A stretch of DNA of 24,874 nucleotides from a virus: IMG/VR virus record IMGVR_UViG_3300025674_000364, positions 1 to 24,874 of that record, one strand, 5' to 3'. Positions 11 to 4,243 of this stretch are shown one piece after another. The notes beneath the pieces were generated by a model. That model did no database searches, was not told the DNA's origin, and saw nothing but the letters and a program-made list of their open reading frames with translations. Made by a program: the position numbers and the translations under genes. Every line of letters begins with the position of its first letter. The first letter of the stretch is position 1.

Positions 11-370
11 TTAGTTCTTAGTCCAGTCTAAAGGTTTCATTCTTAATTTCTCATCAATCTGATTTCTATCTCTTTGGAAATAACGTTCTCCACCAATACC
101 TTTTGTATTTACGCTTATTTTACCATATAGCATAGCCATATAAATATCTCGTGTAAATGAACTAACGGCTGATGAAAAGTCATTTCTGTCCTCTGGAACG
201 TAAGCTCTTCTACTGAATGGCCATATATACCATACGCCTCTATGTTTCTTTCTAAGTAGAGTTTCCATTTGCAATGTATTCTTATCCCTTGAGATTTTAA
301 TTTTAGGGAATACAGGCATATTAGTAGTATCTATTCCAATAGGATCTTTTTGTTCTGCTTTTTCGCTCAT
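11..370 (-). CDS. Hypothetical protein, 119 aa, last gene of the minus-strand operon
   Basis: I do not recognise this protein. It is hydrophilic and basic, with no signal peptide or membrane segment. An aromatic patch, VWYIWPFSRR at about residues 46-55, sits in the middle, and charged stretches occur at both ends. Its start codon overlaps the stop of the upstream 68-aa gene by four bases (ATGA), so the two are probably translationally coupled. It is the third gene of a compact three-gene cluster that diverges from the structural block. In crAss-like genomes the opposite-strand block normally carries early or replication functions, so an early accessory role is possible, but nothing in the sequence shows it. 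That it is a real gene is well supported by length and overlaps; function is unknown. Confidence 0.75.
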   Translation of the reverse strand: MSEKAEQKDPIGIDTTNMPVFPKIKISRDKNTLQMETLLRKKHRGVWYIWPFSRRAYVPEDRNDFSSAVSSFTRDIYMAMLYGKISVNTKGIGGERYFQRDRNQIDEKLRMKPLDWTKN

Positions 371-573
371 GATATAATTTTTAATTGTTTACGTTTATTG
401 TGAATGTATTCTCTTAATTGCTTTTCTGTCTTAATAGGCTTATTAGGAACTACCCATAAGTTATTAGAAATTTTAATTCGATTACTTATATCCGGAGATA
501 CAATACCTTCCATTTTTAATCTCTTAGCTGTTTGAATACCTAAGCTAAGAACATCAGGACTTAATTTACTCAT
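367..573 (-). CDS. Small hypothetical protein, 68 aa
   Basis: This is an unrecognised small basic protein. The N-terminal half (about residues 1-30) looks helical. The C-terminal tail (about residues 45-65) is rich in Lys, Arg and Gln and could contact nucleic acid. That is inference from composition only. The gene is joined to both neighbours: its start shares one base with the stop of the 119-aa gene upstream (573), and its stop overlaps the start of the next gene by four bases (367-370). Such linked spacing supports a genuine coupled gene despite its short length. There is no separate promoter box; it would be transcribed from the divergent region at 937-944. Confidence 0.7.
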   Translation of the reverse strand: MSKLSPDVLSLGIQTAKRLKMEGIVSPDISNRIKISNNLWVVPNKPIKTEKQLREYIHNKRKQLKIIS

Positions 574-932
574 TAGTGCTTTGTTTCGTCAAATTTATAA
601 TTTACTTTACCATGCTCAGATAATACCTGTATGTTAGATATATTTGTTTGATGGTCATTAAAATTACCATTAATATTTAACACTCTCCATATTCTTTTTG
701 CTAAAGCTATCTTTATTTTATCAGTAGGGATTTTGTTATGATCATCAAGTATAGTTAATATTTCGTAAACAAATGTTTCATTAACTAATTGCATAAGCTC
801 ACGTTTACGATTAGCTTTCTTTAATCTATAGTACTTATCCATGTTACTCTTTTTGATATATTGGAAGTTACAAGATATTATACAAATTCTTGGTTTATAG
901 CCAACATTGTATTTACGTATAGTATCTAACAT
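573..932 (-). CDS. Hypothetical protein, 119 aa, first gene of the minus-strand operon
   Basis: I do not recognise the family. The protein is basic in its first half (cluster KKANRKR at about residues 38-44) and then largely helical. It has no membrane segment. The start at 930-932 is favoured because a minus-strand TATTTTTG box (937-944) ends exactly four bases before the ATG, the same geometry as at four plus-strand genes here. The transcript would therefore be leaderless or nearly so. The 961-977 inverted repeat lies about 30-45 bases upstream, where it could regulate this gene together with the divergent winged-helix gene. The next minus-strand gene starts within its stop codon. Function is unknown. 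Confidence 0.75.
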   Translation of the reverse strand: MLDTIRKYNVGYKPRICIISCNFQYIKKSNMDKYYRLKKANRKRELMQLVNETFVYEILTILDDHNKIPTDKIKIALAKRIWRVLNINGNFNDHQTNISNIQVLSEHGKVNYKFDETKH

Positions 933-936
933 ATTA

Positions 937-944
937 CAAAAATA
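937..944 (-). promoter_or_regulatory. Bacteroidota-type -7 box for the minus-strand operon
   Basis: Read on the minus strand, the sequence is TATTTTTG, matching the TAnnTTTG consensus of Bacteroidota housekeeping promoters. Four bases (TAAT) separate it from the ATG at 932. Because this box is centred near -7, transcription would start at or next to the A of the ATG. I see no clear TTG-type -33 element. The expected -33 position lies close to the inverted repeat at 961-977. Confidence 0.55.
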
Positions 945-960
945 TGAAAAATATTAAAAT

Positions 961-977
961 GTGTATTTTTAATACAC
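961..977. promoter_or_regulatory. Perfect inverted repeat, candidate operator between divergent promoters
   Basis: GTGTATT-TTT-AATACAC is a perfect inverted repeat with seven-base arms and a three-base spacer. It lies about 29-45 bases upstream of the minus-strand start and 21-37 bases upstream of the plus-strand start, so it covers the -33 region of both promoters. The neighbouring plus-strand gene has winged-helix character, so autoregulation by its product is a natural hypothesis. The repeat is not followed by a run of T long enough to suggest a terminator, and it contains G/C positions at both ends of the arms. Confidence 0.55.
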
Positions 978-985
978 TTTTTTCA

Positions 986-993
986 TATCTTTG
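986..993 (+). promoter_or_regulatory. Bacteroidota-type -7 box for the winged-helix gene
   Basis: TATCTTTG is an exact TAnnTTTG match, and four bases (TACT) separate it from the ATG at 998. The position predicts a leaderless transcript and decides the start of the gene: an upstream in-frame ATG at 944 would lie before the promoter and inside the candidate operator. Confidence 0.65.
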
Positions 994-997
994 TACT

Positions 998-1306
998 ATG
1001 AGAAATTACAATGTTTACGATAGCAATCCATTTAAACCTCAGGAAATAGAAATAACACAAGAGGCGTTAGAGTTAGTTTCTGAGTTAAGTAAAACTGGGT
1101 TAAGACTATATAACTATATGTATCAATTCTCGTTAAGAAAAAATGGTATCTTGTACTTTGATAATAAAGAAGCTAAATTTGAATTAAGCTTTAAAGAAAA
1201 TAAATCAATTTACAATGGTATCAATGAATTGCTAAATAAAGGAATTATAGCTCGGCGAAAATCAAATGAAGAGTTTTATTACAATCCTAAATATATAAAT
1301 AATTAA
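998..1306 (+). CDS. Small winged-helix-like DNA-binding protein (putative regulator), 102 aa
   Basis: The C-terminal two thirds (about residues 35-100) look like a winged helix. A helical segment is followed by a strand-like FDNKEAKFELSF, then a recognition-helix-like stretch (NKSIYNGINELLNKGII) and a basic wing (ARRKSNEEFYYNPKYI). The ending, aromatic residues then NPKYI, resembles winged-helix domains of plasmid and phage RepL/MarR-type proteins. I start it at 998 rather than the in-frame ATG at 944, because the TATCTTTG box at 986-993 lies directly before 998 and the longer version would read through the 961-977 inverted repeat. It is the first plus-strand gene and faces the minus-strand operon, the classic place for a phage switch regulator. 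The fold is likely; the regulatory role and its target are inference. Confidence 0.65.
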   Translation: MRNYNVYDSNPFKPQEIEITQEALELVSELSKTGLRLYNYMYQFSLRKNGILYFDNKEAKFELSFKENKSIYNGINELLNKGIIARRKSNEEFYYNPKYINN

Positions 1307-1316: not shown

Positions 1317-1559
1317 ATGGATATGCAATCTATAGAAGATGTAATGGTATTCAGATTAACTGAATCTACATTAAATGTAGACGGATTACTTGTAATTGGT
1401 TCAGAAGATGTTCGGTATCATGCTTTATGTGGTACAGAGCTTAGTATAATAAGACTAACTGCTATATATAAATTTTTAGCACAAGAGGAATTAGAAAAGA
1501 GAAAAAAGTTTGGTCAGTATGTAGACCGTATAATTGATAAATTAATTTACAACAAATGA
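1317..1559 (+). CDS. Small hypothetical protein, 80 aa
   Basis: I do not recognise this protein. It is mixed alpha/beta in appearance: a strand-rich N-terminal half (about residues 8-30) is followed by a long helix ending in a basic segment (EELEKRKKFGQ at about residues 56-66). No membrane segment is visible. The ATG at 1317 lies five bases after a TAAATTTG box; a second in-frame ATG at 1323 is the alternative start. The stop overlaps the ATG of the 44-aa basic gene (ATGA, 1556-1559), so it belongs to the start of the packaging operon. Its function cannot be inferred. Confidence 0.65.
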   Translation: MDMQSIEDVMVFRLTESTLNVDGLLVIGSEDVRYHALCGTELSIIRLTAIYKFLAQEELEKRKKFGQYVDRIIDKLIYNK

Positions 1560-1690
1560 GTACTTTAAAACAAAGAGCTGCTTGGAGCCAACACTCTCAA
1601 CAGCAAGATGCTAAAAGGAAAAAGAAAAGTAAGGTTAAAAAGAAAATGACTCCCGTTTCAAGAAAGGGAAAAAGTAAATTTAAGTATTAA
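1556..1690 (+). CDS. Tiny lysine/arginine-rich protein, 44 aa
   Basis: The frame ATG...TAA encodes 44 residues, beginning MSTLKQRAAWSQHSQ. About residues 20-43 are dominated by Lys and Arg (DAKRKKKSKVKKKM, then SRKGKSKFKY), and there are almost no acidic residues. The gene is locked between its neighbours: its ATG overlaps the TGA of the 80-aa gene (ATGA), and its TAA shares its last base with the ATG of the TerS candidate (TAATG). That double junction is strong evidence for a real gene despite its size. Such a charge should bind DNA or RNA, or shield polyanions. Position directly before the packaging genes suggests a DNA-handling role, which is inference. I know no named family for it. Confidence 0.7.
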   Translation: MSTLKQRAAWSQHSQQQDAKRKKKSKVKKKMTPVSRKGKSKFKY

Positions 1691-2238
1691 TGTATAATCA
1701 ACTCGTTGATATAGGAAAGGATGGTAATGTATTACTACAAGATAGTTCCATAGCTTTAATGCCTTCAATGTGGTGTTTGTATAAGGATAGAAAAGGTGGT
1801 AGTAAACAAGTAAGGTGGATTGTAGCTATGTATGACTATAAATCTCCTTACCGTAGATTACCAGAAGATGAAAGGCACAGCAGGGTTTCTTACATGATAT
1901 TTGAAAAAAGTAAAAATCCAAAGTTTAATAGTAAACTTGTTAAAGATGCTATTGAAGAATATAAGAAGTTACAGTATGATCCTTTGATTGATGAGTATAA
2001 TGCTATGTGTGAAAAGTCATATCAAATGACTAAAGTTTACAGAAGTATTAAACCTACTGCTGAAACTCTTGAGGATTTAAACAAGATGCAAGAACAAATG
2101 GGTAAGGCTGCTATAGCAAGAGATAAGATTAAAGCATTAATTCTAAAAAATGAAGAGTCAGAAGTTAAAATATCTGGTACTGGCTCAGAAGATTTTAGTT
2201 TATTTGAACAAGATGAGCGTTTAATAGATAATGATTAG
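1690..2238 (+). CDS. Probable small terminase subunit or packaging accessory protein, 182 aa
   Basis: Location is the main clue. The gene immediately precedes the large terminase, overlaps its start by eight bases, and has the usual TerS size. The N-terminal half (about residues 1-85) looks like a compact alpha/beta region containing WCLYKDRKGG and RWIVAMYDYKSPYRRLP. The middle (about residues 90-150) is strongly helical with coiled-coil character, including a KMQEQMGKAAIARDKIKALI stretch, as expected of the oligomerisation region of a ring-forming TerS. The C-terminal tail is acidic. No clear N-terminal helix-turn-helix is visible, so DNA recognition is not shown. The alternative is an unrelated conserved crAss-like head gene. 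Confidence 0.5.
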   Translation: MYNQLVDIGKDGNVLLQDSSIALMPSMWCLYKDRKGGSKQVRWIVAMYDYKSPYRRLPEDERHSRVSYMIFEKSKNPKFNSKLVKDAIEEYKKLQYDPLIDEYNAMCEKSYQMTKVYRSIKPTAETLEDLNKMQEQMGKAAIARDKIKALILKNEESEVKISGTGSEDFSLFEQDERLIDND

Positions 2239-4243
2239 TTCTGATAAATATAGTCCAGTAATATTTGATAAGAATTTAAAAGATTATCATAAGCTAAAAA
2301 AGAATACGGCTGAATATTTTGCTTTTTGGAAAGAACAAAAACATAGATTGCTTCATGGTTATAAACCAACTGGTGGTACTTGGATTCCACCAAACTACTA
2401 TTTCTACTTAAATTTTTCTAAAATACATGGTTTATCTCAAGGGGCAAGACGTAAATCTATGATTGCTCCCATTTATCGTGACCAAGACCACGAATACTTT
2501 CAAGAAATATATCACGCTAAATATGGTGATGGTAAAGATAACAAAGGTGGATATGGTATTATTGTCGTAAAAGCAAGACGTAAGGGGTTCTCCTTTATGA
2601 ATGCTAATACTCTATTACATGAATGGACTTGTTACCCTCATTCAGAAAATGGGTTAGGAGCTCAAAGAGAAGATTATGTTCAGGATTTCAGAAAAAAACT
2701 GATAATGTCCTACAATGAACTCCCACCAGAACTAAGAAATAAAGTCTTGCATAATAACGAAGAATTATTAATGTCGGGATATAAAGAAAAAGTTGATGGT
2801 ATTTGGTTAGAGAAAGGAACTAAATCTATGATACACTTTAGAGTAATGGAAAAGCCTAACGCATTTCGTGGTACTTCATTGAACTATATGGTATTTGAAG
2901 AAGCTGGAGAATTTTTAAAACTTAAAAGATCTTACGAATCATCAGAAGATTGTTTTAAAGAGGGGGATATATTTTTTGGTACTCCAATAATAGGGGGAAC
3001 ATCAAATAATATGGAAGTTGAGTCAGACGATTTTATGAATATGTTTTACAATGCTGAAGAGTATAATCTTAAAGCAGTATTTATAAAAGCTTCTAAAGTG
3101 TTTGGTAGTTTTTTTGATATGAAAACTGGACAAAGTGATGTAGAAGGAGCTGAGAAGTTTGTATTAGCCGAAGCACAACGTAGAAAAGAAACTGGTGATT
3201 TACAATCATATTATTCATACTTACAAGAAAATCCATTAGAGGTAGAACACGCTTTTTATCGTAGTGGACAAACACCATTTGCTTTAGAAAAGATTAATAA
3301 GCAAATAGCTAACATTAATAATAATCCTTCATTTCAAAAAGTTCAAAGATGTAGATTAGAATGGAGTAAAGGAAAAGATGGTAAAGAAATATTTGGCAGT
3401 AAGCCTACTATTGTATATGAATGGGAAGATAAAGCTAATGGCTGTCTAAAAGTTTCTGATAATATTAAAGAAGATGCTTATCCATTTGAAATTGTTGAAT
3501 TACCATTGGATGGAATTAAAAATGCTCATTTATCAGCAGTTGATCCTTATCACGTAGATGATGAATTAGAGGAAATGAAAAAGAAAGTTTCCGAACAAAC
3601 TGGTAGGTCAAATGGTTGTATGTGTGTATATCGTAGGTTTGTTGGACAAAATACTATTGGAGAATTACCTGTAGCTTTTTATACTGATAGACCATATTCA
3701 AAAGAAATATTTTATGAGAATTGTTTGAAGTTAGCTATTTTATATGATAGTCAAATACTTGTAGAATACAATGATGATGGTTTCTTAAAATATTTTCAAA
3801 CTAATAAAATGATGAGGTACTTAAAAGAAAGACCACGTTCAGCTGATAGTCCTTGGAGTCAAGTTACAAATAGATATGGTATTCATATGAAAACATATCA
3901 AAAGAAATTGGTAACAGAATTAGTGGATGAATATATTAAAAAACATTGGGAAGATATATACTTTTTGAAACTACTTAATGAGTTTACCGTATATGGTGCA
4001 AAGAATACAGATAGAGTTATGGCATTTGGTATGGCGTTAATACACGATATGGATGCTACTAAAAAAATATTTGATAAATCAGAAGATAAAAAAAAAGAGA
4101 AAATGGAAGGTTTGCCTGAGTTTAAAAGAGATATGAATGGTATGGTAACAATTTCAGCAAATCGTGAAAGTAATAATAATTTTGGAAATAGAAAAAGAAA
4201 ACCTACTTTTGATTACAATTTAGATACTGACAATATTTATTAA
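2231..4243 (+). CDS. terL: Terminase large subunit (packaging ATPase and nuclease), 670 aa
   Basis: This motor subunit would pump DNA into the prohead through the portal and cut the concatemer. The ATPase domain occupies roughly residues 70-330. KARRKGFS (114-121) replaces the usual Walker A P-loop, YMVFEE (219-224) is the Walker B strand with catalytic Glu, and FFGTP (248-252) fits the coupling motif. The RNase H-fold nuclease domain follows at about 430-610. Its acidic residues are plausibly D438 (AVDPY), E512 (LVEYN) and D594 (TDRVMAFG), an order matching known TerL nucleases. Length is normal for crAss-like TerL. It overlaps the TerS candidate by eight bases and is followed after four bases by the portal gene. 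The deviant P-loop is noteworthy, but the overall call is secure. Confidence 0.93.
   Translation: MISSDKYSPVIFDKNLKDYHKLKKNTAEYFAFWKEQKHRLLHGYKPTGGTWIPPNYYFYLNFSKIHGLSQGARRKSMIAPIYRDQDHEYFQEIYHAKYGDGKDNKGGYGIIVVKARRKGFSFMNANTLLHEWTCYPHSENGLGAQREDYVQDFRKKLIMSYNELPPELRNKVLHNNEELLMSGYKEKVDGIWLEKGTKSMIHFRVMEKPNAFRGTSLNYMVFEEAGEFLKLKRSYESSEDCFKEGDIFFGTPIIGGTSNNMEVESDDFMNMFYNAEEYNLKAVFIKASKVFGSFFDMKTGQSDVEGAEKFVLAEAQRRKETGDLQSYYSYLQENPLEVEHAFYRSGQTPFALEKINKQIANINNNPSFQKVQRCRLEWSKGKDGKEIFGSKPTIVYEWEDKANGCLKVSDNIKEDAYPFEIVELPLDGIKNAHLSAVDPYHVDDELEEMKKKVSEQTGRSNGCMCVYRRFVGQNTIGELPVAFYTDRPYSKEIFYENCLKLAILYDSQILVEYNDDGFLKYFQTNKMMRYLKERPRSADSPWSQVTNRYGIHMKTYQKKLVTELVDEYIKKHWEDIYFLKLLNEFTVYGAKNTDRVMAFGMALIHDMDATKKIFDKSEDKKKEKMEGLPEFKRDMNGMVTISANRESNNNFGNRKRKPTFDYNLDTDNIY

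Follow-up and report, generated by a model that had tools for sequence, protein, structure and literature searches.

A conserved dyad between two divergent host-type promoters of apparently leaderless geometry in crAss-related phages, with a predicted winged-helix protein as candidate regulator

Introduction

In phage lambda, the operator region OR lies between the promoters PR and PRM and forms a divergent control region with a shared operator. At the middle promoters of phage T4, the MotA box at -30 replaces the -35 element; this box is short and non-palindromic, is bound by a double-wing domain and is used at many promoters (PMC2988021). Bacteroidetes sigma-ABfr promoters consist of a -33 element (TTTG) and a -7 element (TAnnTTTG); in F. 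johnsoniae the -7 box spans -12 to -5, the -33 element is weak and 87% of the examined transcripts carry a leader of more than 10 nt (PMC6847099). In crAss phages, the late block with the genes for terminase large subunit (TerL), portal and major capsid protein (MCP) is thought to be read by the host RNA polymerase, in a review of the Crassvirales that makes no mention of promoters (PMC10136315). This review and a survey describe the timing of expression and, for early genes, a virion polymerase, and name no operator or promoter; our literature search gave no paper combining crAss-like, leaderless and promoter.

Here we analyse a junction between two divergent operons in a viral contig, referred to as the window (a whole IMG/VR record of 24,874 bases, i.e. 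a 24.9-kb contig). It carries a 17-bp dyad which, with high confidence, we take to be a dimeric-regulator site common to two predicted host-type promoters with leaderless geometry.

Results

The plus strand of the window carries the genes for TerL, portal, major capsid and other virion proteins, the minus strand three small genes. The late block with TerL, portal and MCP is like that of the Crassvirales (PMC10136315), unlike which the three window proteins are only ~25% identical to their Crassvirales counterparts; the Flavobacterium FpV phages, which stand outside the order, match TerL and MCP about equally. For these reasons the label crAss-related, and in this sense the former description as a crAss-like genome, is safe, an assignment to a family not. 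In the relative G010, a 2794-aa late protein (37220-45604, minus strand; L027/L028) contains near residue 2120 the sequence HISDSDHDGDKA; this motif, DSDHDGD, resembles DxDxD, the catalytic motif in the virion RNA polymerases of crAss phages, although a motif by itself does not establish such an enzyme. The features of the junction are the following.

11..370, minus strand: 119-aa gene of the divergent operon
367..573, minus strand: 68-aa gene of the divergent operon
573..932, minus strand: C119, conserved 119-aa protein, first gene of the divergent operon
937..944, minus strand: -7 box of the predicted divergent promoter, TATTTTTG, 4 nt before ATG 932-930; conserved, with some TAnnTTTA variants
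961..977, no strand: operator-like dyad, GTGTATTTTTAATACAC (sequence, 16/16 conservation, logo, symmetric double changes)
986..993, plus strand: -7 box of the predicted late promoter, TATCTTTG, 4 nt before ATG 998-1000; conserved
998..1306, plus strand: wH102, 102-aa predicted winged helix, first gene of the late operon, candidate regulator (alignment, model, structure match)
1317..1559, plus strand: 80-aa second gene of the late operon
1690..2238, plus strand: 182-aa gene directly before TerL, syntenic in all relatives
2231..4243, plus strand: terminase large subunit (TerL), start of the virion gene block (PHROG 6681, E 9e-78)

Relatives were collected by a TerL search, which yielded 23 related loci, and by a wH102 profile search, which yielded more. 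The window and its relatives, whose TerL proteins are 63-85% identical to that of the window, provide 16 distinct junctions with a conserved gene order. The two outward TAnnTTTG boxes reported in the earlier note, each four bases before an ATG (932 and 998), are exact on the sequence, and both match the -7 pattern TAHHTTTG of Bacteroidetes sigma-ABfr promoters. The late-side box is exact in 14/16 junctions, the variants being mostly TAnnTTTA on the divergent side, and the distance from box to start is 4 bases on both sides in most relatives. Such a box-to-start geometry of leaderless type is rare elsewhere in ~280 kb of family contigs. The box position of -12 to -5 in F. johnsoniae, when applied here, places the predicted +1 at 998 and 932, the A of each ATG, so that transcription would start on both first codons. 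Box positions and conservation support a divergent host-type promoter pair with leaderless geometry; a divergent leaderless pair had been suggested earlier. In the 27 bp upstream of each box, no -33 TTG element was found.

Between the divergent starts lie 65 bp, which contain at 961-977 the 17-bp dyad. In the window it reads as two arms, GTGTATT and AATACAC, around a central TTT; the family consensus RTGTA-YTTTTWR-TACAY describes it better than the 7-3-7 form does. If the A of each ATG is taken as +1, the dyad occupies -37 to -21 relative to the plus start and -45 to -29 relative to the minus start, and thus indeed covers the -33 area of both promoters; the coordinates of repeat, boxes and spacings were all confirmed on the sequence. 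The 7-3-7 palindrome by itself is weak evidence beyond chance, as the window contains 4 perfect ones versus 3.5 expected and, for 66 bp with the local composition, P is ~0.04. A divergent pair of boxes with their starts is present a single time in the window and in 0 of 200 simulated windows. A chance palindrome, which the window alone leaves possible, is ruled out by the relatives (16/16 junctions), and it is this conservation by which the observation goes beyond chance. An intrinsic terminator was rejected, as the T run after the repeat in the window and L004 is absent in other relatives and both neighbours are transcribed away from the repeat. An RNA hairpin was rejected as well; the fold is possible (-5.8 kcal/mol, z -3), yet both predicted starts are downstream of the site.

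The search for the repeat beside the same gene in related genomes, proposed earlier as a check, found the pattern (A/G/T)TGTA-N7-TACA(A/C/T) (DTGTAN7TACAH) in 16/16 distinct junctions versus 0.12 expected from dinucleotide shuffles, a contrast which indicates strength rather than an exact probability, because the pattern was derived from part of the same junction set and the phages share ancestry. In the logo, the information content reaches 1.31 bits per position in the operator compared to 0.27-0.35 in the spacers. Symmetric positions outside the invariant TGTA/TACA covary, with 22 double changes versus 12.5 in shuffles (0/500 as high), and this signal disappears when the dyad is slid. In L030, the most distant lineage, two tandem palindromes 22 bp apart (4093-4131) each overlap a -7-like sequence. 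On the basis of this comparison, an operator at the junction is very likely real.

Beyond the junction the site is scarce. It is present at the junction only in the contigs G024, G025 and G026 (25-44 kb), and the directional consensus without mismatch occurs at the junctions and at one further site, in G010 only, with 0 expected per 71 kb. An IMG/VR-wide scan for the succession box, spacer, operator, spacer and box returned 45 stretches, which lie at divergent gene starts only in the phage family of the window; the other matches do not form divergent leaderless pairs of this kind, most of them being a single recurrent stretch whose boxes have no start codons, and those in L090 and similar contigs lying at a helicase gene start. 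The second exact operator of G010 (15584-15600; L026) overlaps TACATTTA seven bases before an 89-aa orphan ORF, and is situated between the genes for a DnaB-like helicase and Sak4. The other contigs, the majority of which do not include this region, gave no such copy. At this site a replication-gene promoter may be within reach of the same regulator. The ORF (P0001) was considered as a wH102 paralogue and rejected, since it has no profile match, and no other relatives were found. TGTA-N7-TACA also occurs in G010 (2091-2107; L026) and G027 (2510-2526; L064) at the coding start of homologous genes for small membrane proteins; these sites were rejected as operators and are probably a coding coincidence due to a conserved LCI..T peptide.

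The placement of the operator between the boxes follows two mirror registers. In most junctions the boxes are 41-44 bp apart, so that two polymerases, judged from typical footprints, could hardly occupy both at once. The operator lies off-centre, with spacers of 8-9 and 16-18 bp to the two boxes. The near box is the late one in the window, L004, L013, L035, L037 and L050, and the divergent one in L005, L008, L011, L012, L014, L015 and L038, as judged by eye on the sequence of each junction, L016 and L051 being less clear. The operator centre accordingly lies near -29/-30 or -37/-38, the two positions being exchanged between the late and the divergent promoter. The T-tract of the operator is directed at the near box in 14/15 junctions (the exception is L038), a coupling that may reflect few independent events; the TerL tree requires at least 2 changes. 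The inter-promoter segment is flanked by the two -7 boxes as inverted repeats, and an inversion of this segment would yield both the register swap and the T-tract coupling.

wH102 starts at M 998 in the alignment of relatives; a longer 120-aa gene from 944 was rejected, as that alignment begins at M 998. The earlier remark that this plus-strand gene looks like a winged helix is supported by its model (pLDDT 83.7), in which the predicted order H-H-E-E-H-H-E-E corresponds to a wHTH fold with recognition helix and beta wing, and by a match to the wHTH DNA-binding domain of CodY (Z 8.2 over 84 residues). Further structural matches are CRP-family domains, LexA domains and plasmid RepA; the best Foldseek E-value is only 0.037, and in view of such weak values the predicted fold class is supported, a specific family not. 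No Pfam family scored above its cut-off (TrmB 14.3 bits versus 25.6), and the PHROG search gave only a weak match, of unknown function; relatives of wH102 weakly match PHROG replication initiation proteins. Outside the phage family of the window no wH102 relative was found in GenBank phages or bacterial genomes, which leaves no known function to borrow. The gene is found near every junction complete enough to tell. In L013, L016 and L030 another gene directly follows the late promoter, with wH102 after it and the operator retained; the late operon of L030 begins with a MazG-like gene. In the window, a small basic 44-aa ORF (1556-1690) lies between the 80-aa and 182-aa genes, and similar ORFs occupy the same place in several relatives. 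The late operon of G010 extends over ~45 kb.

C119 is conserved in most relatives; its AlphaFold2 model is confident (pLDDT 88.6), and no PDB fold matches it clearly (best Z 3.6). The minus-side operon of longer relatives comprises ~3-6 genes, C119 and 2-5 small ones, and runs into convergent genes in G001, G010, G024, G025 and G026. The replication genes for DnaB, Sak4 and SSB (G010) lie farther along past this operon in the same orientation. The late-block promoter hence faces a short divergent operon, and the junction is not simply a boundary between early and late blocks: of the junction of early and late blocks assumed in the earlier note, the late block on the plus side holds, whereas the minus side is a short operon rather than the whole early block.

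Discussion

On the basis of these comparisons we propose the following mechanism. The two TAnnTTTG promoters, which are of the primary-sigma type of Bacteroidetes, would initiate on the first-codon A of each operon, and the shared dyad RTGTA-YTTTTWR-TACAY would overlap both of them between -21 and -45. Its two TGTA half-sites, about one helical turn apart, would be bound by a dimeric helix-turn-helix protein, most likely wH102, which would exclude the host-type RNA polymerase from both promoters. The late operon and the short divergent operon would thereby be controlled jointly, and wH102 would limit its own synthesis, i.e. be autoregulated. We consider wH102 the most likely binder of the dyad with slightly better than even confidence; against it stands that it is not the first gene in L013, L016 and L030, and the binder could instead be a protein of the host or a different phage regulator. 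For this explanation as a whole, dual repression via the shared dyad with wH102 as the most likely binder, we see about even prospects.

Repression of both promoters by steric exclusion appears fairly probable, and more so than activation, which we regard as somewhat unlikely. In the latter case, a phage factor (wH102 or another) would, like MotA, replace the -33 element from its place on the dyad and, at one promoter or at both, recruit or remodel the host RNA polymerase. Such a factor would agree with the missing -33 TTG on both promoters, with the good -7 boxes retained throughout and with the centre of the near-promoter site at ~-29, which matches the MotA box at -30 when position alone is compared. 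The missing -33 element is indeed also expected of activator-dependent promoters, but this element is weak in Flavobacterium (F. johnsoniae) anyway. Moreover, the site on the late promoter is centred at ~-29 or ~-38 depending on the lineage, positions on different helix faces, which makes a strict activator geometry unlikely, and steric exclusion fits the swapped registers better than a geometry-bound activator. The recurrent site at G010 15584 and the doubled sites of L030 overlap -7-like sequences, the position of a repressor, and were counted for repression.

The earlier note had proposed an autoregulated early/late switch, a reading that is supported in part, its sequence elements being real and conserved. 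In a bistable version similar to lambda OR, the regulator would repress one promoter, help the other and so set the order of the operons. The asymmetric placement of the dyad (8-9 versus 16-18 bp) and the oriented T-tract (14/15) could affect the two promoters unequally. However, the near operon swaps between lineages, so that the logic would be reversed between relatives; usually a single operator is present and no graded set, and the minus side is a short operon and not the early block. The two registers speak for steric control of both promoters rather than for a fixed arrangement that activates one and represses the other, and the switch, in preference to plain dual control, is not upheld; we consider it improbable.

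A symmetric site such as TGTA-N7-TACA would fit many dimeric regulators of hosts. The dyad might correspondingly be bound by a Bacteroidetes host regulator by which the phage senses the state of its host, wH102 being incidental. This reading is set against the confinement of the site to one place in most contigs, the occurrence of the full architecture at gene starts in this phage family only and the presence of wH102 alongside the site throughout, and we rate it slightly below the switch. A replication origin at the AT-rich dyad, with wH102 acting there as a winged helix of initiator type, is highly improbable, since the weak PHROG matches of wH102 relatives to replication initiation proteins, the structural match to plasmid RepA and the change in sign of the GC skew at the junction are outweighed by the usually single dyad without an iteron array, by a skew change that follows gene orientation and by the precise promoter/start spacing conserved on both sides.

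One might speculate that the dyad and wH102 act as a family-wide master switch that sets the order of expression in crAss-related phages via paired leaderless host-type promoters, and that the inter-promoter segment was inverted in evolution, swapping the near operon; we consider this scenario unlikely. In any case, promoter-level control of late genes in crAss-related phages becomes testable with a 65-bp region, a 17-bp site and one candidate protein, and the locus is open to work in vitro and in reporter strains, with no need to culture the phage. A conserved pair of leaderless starts, if true, would be unusual where most transcripts are leadered.

Compared with known systems, the junction is like lambda OR in its back-to-back promoters, the dyad operator between them and the small HTH-type protein encoded at one side. 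Unlike lambda OR, it usually has one operator instead of three, its promoters are of the Bacteroidetes type with leaderless geometry on both sides, one side is a late structural operon and the near side swaps between lineages. With sigma-ABfr promoters it shares the -7 box and the 4 nt between box and start, equal to the published distance between box and transcription start (PMC6847099), but the pair lacks a -33 element and has leaderless geometry on both sides, in contrast to the mostly leadered transcripts of F. johnsoniae. Finally, it resembles T4 middle promoters in combining a host -7/-10 element with an extra element at ~-30 in the place of the -33/-35 element, whereas the site in the window, unlike the MotA box, is a 17-bp dyad serving two promoters.
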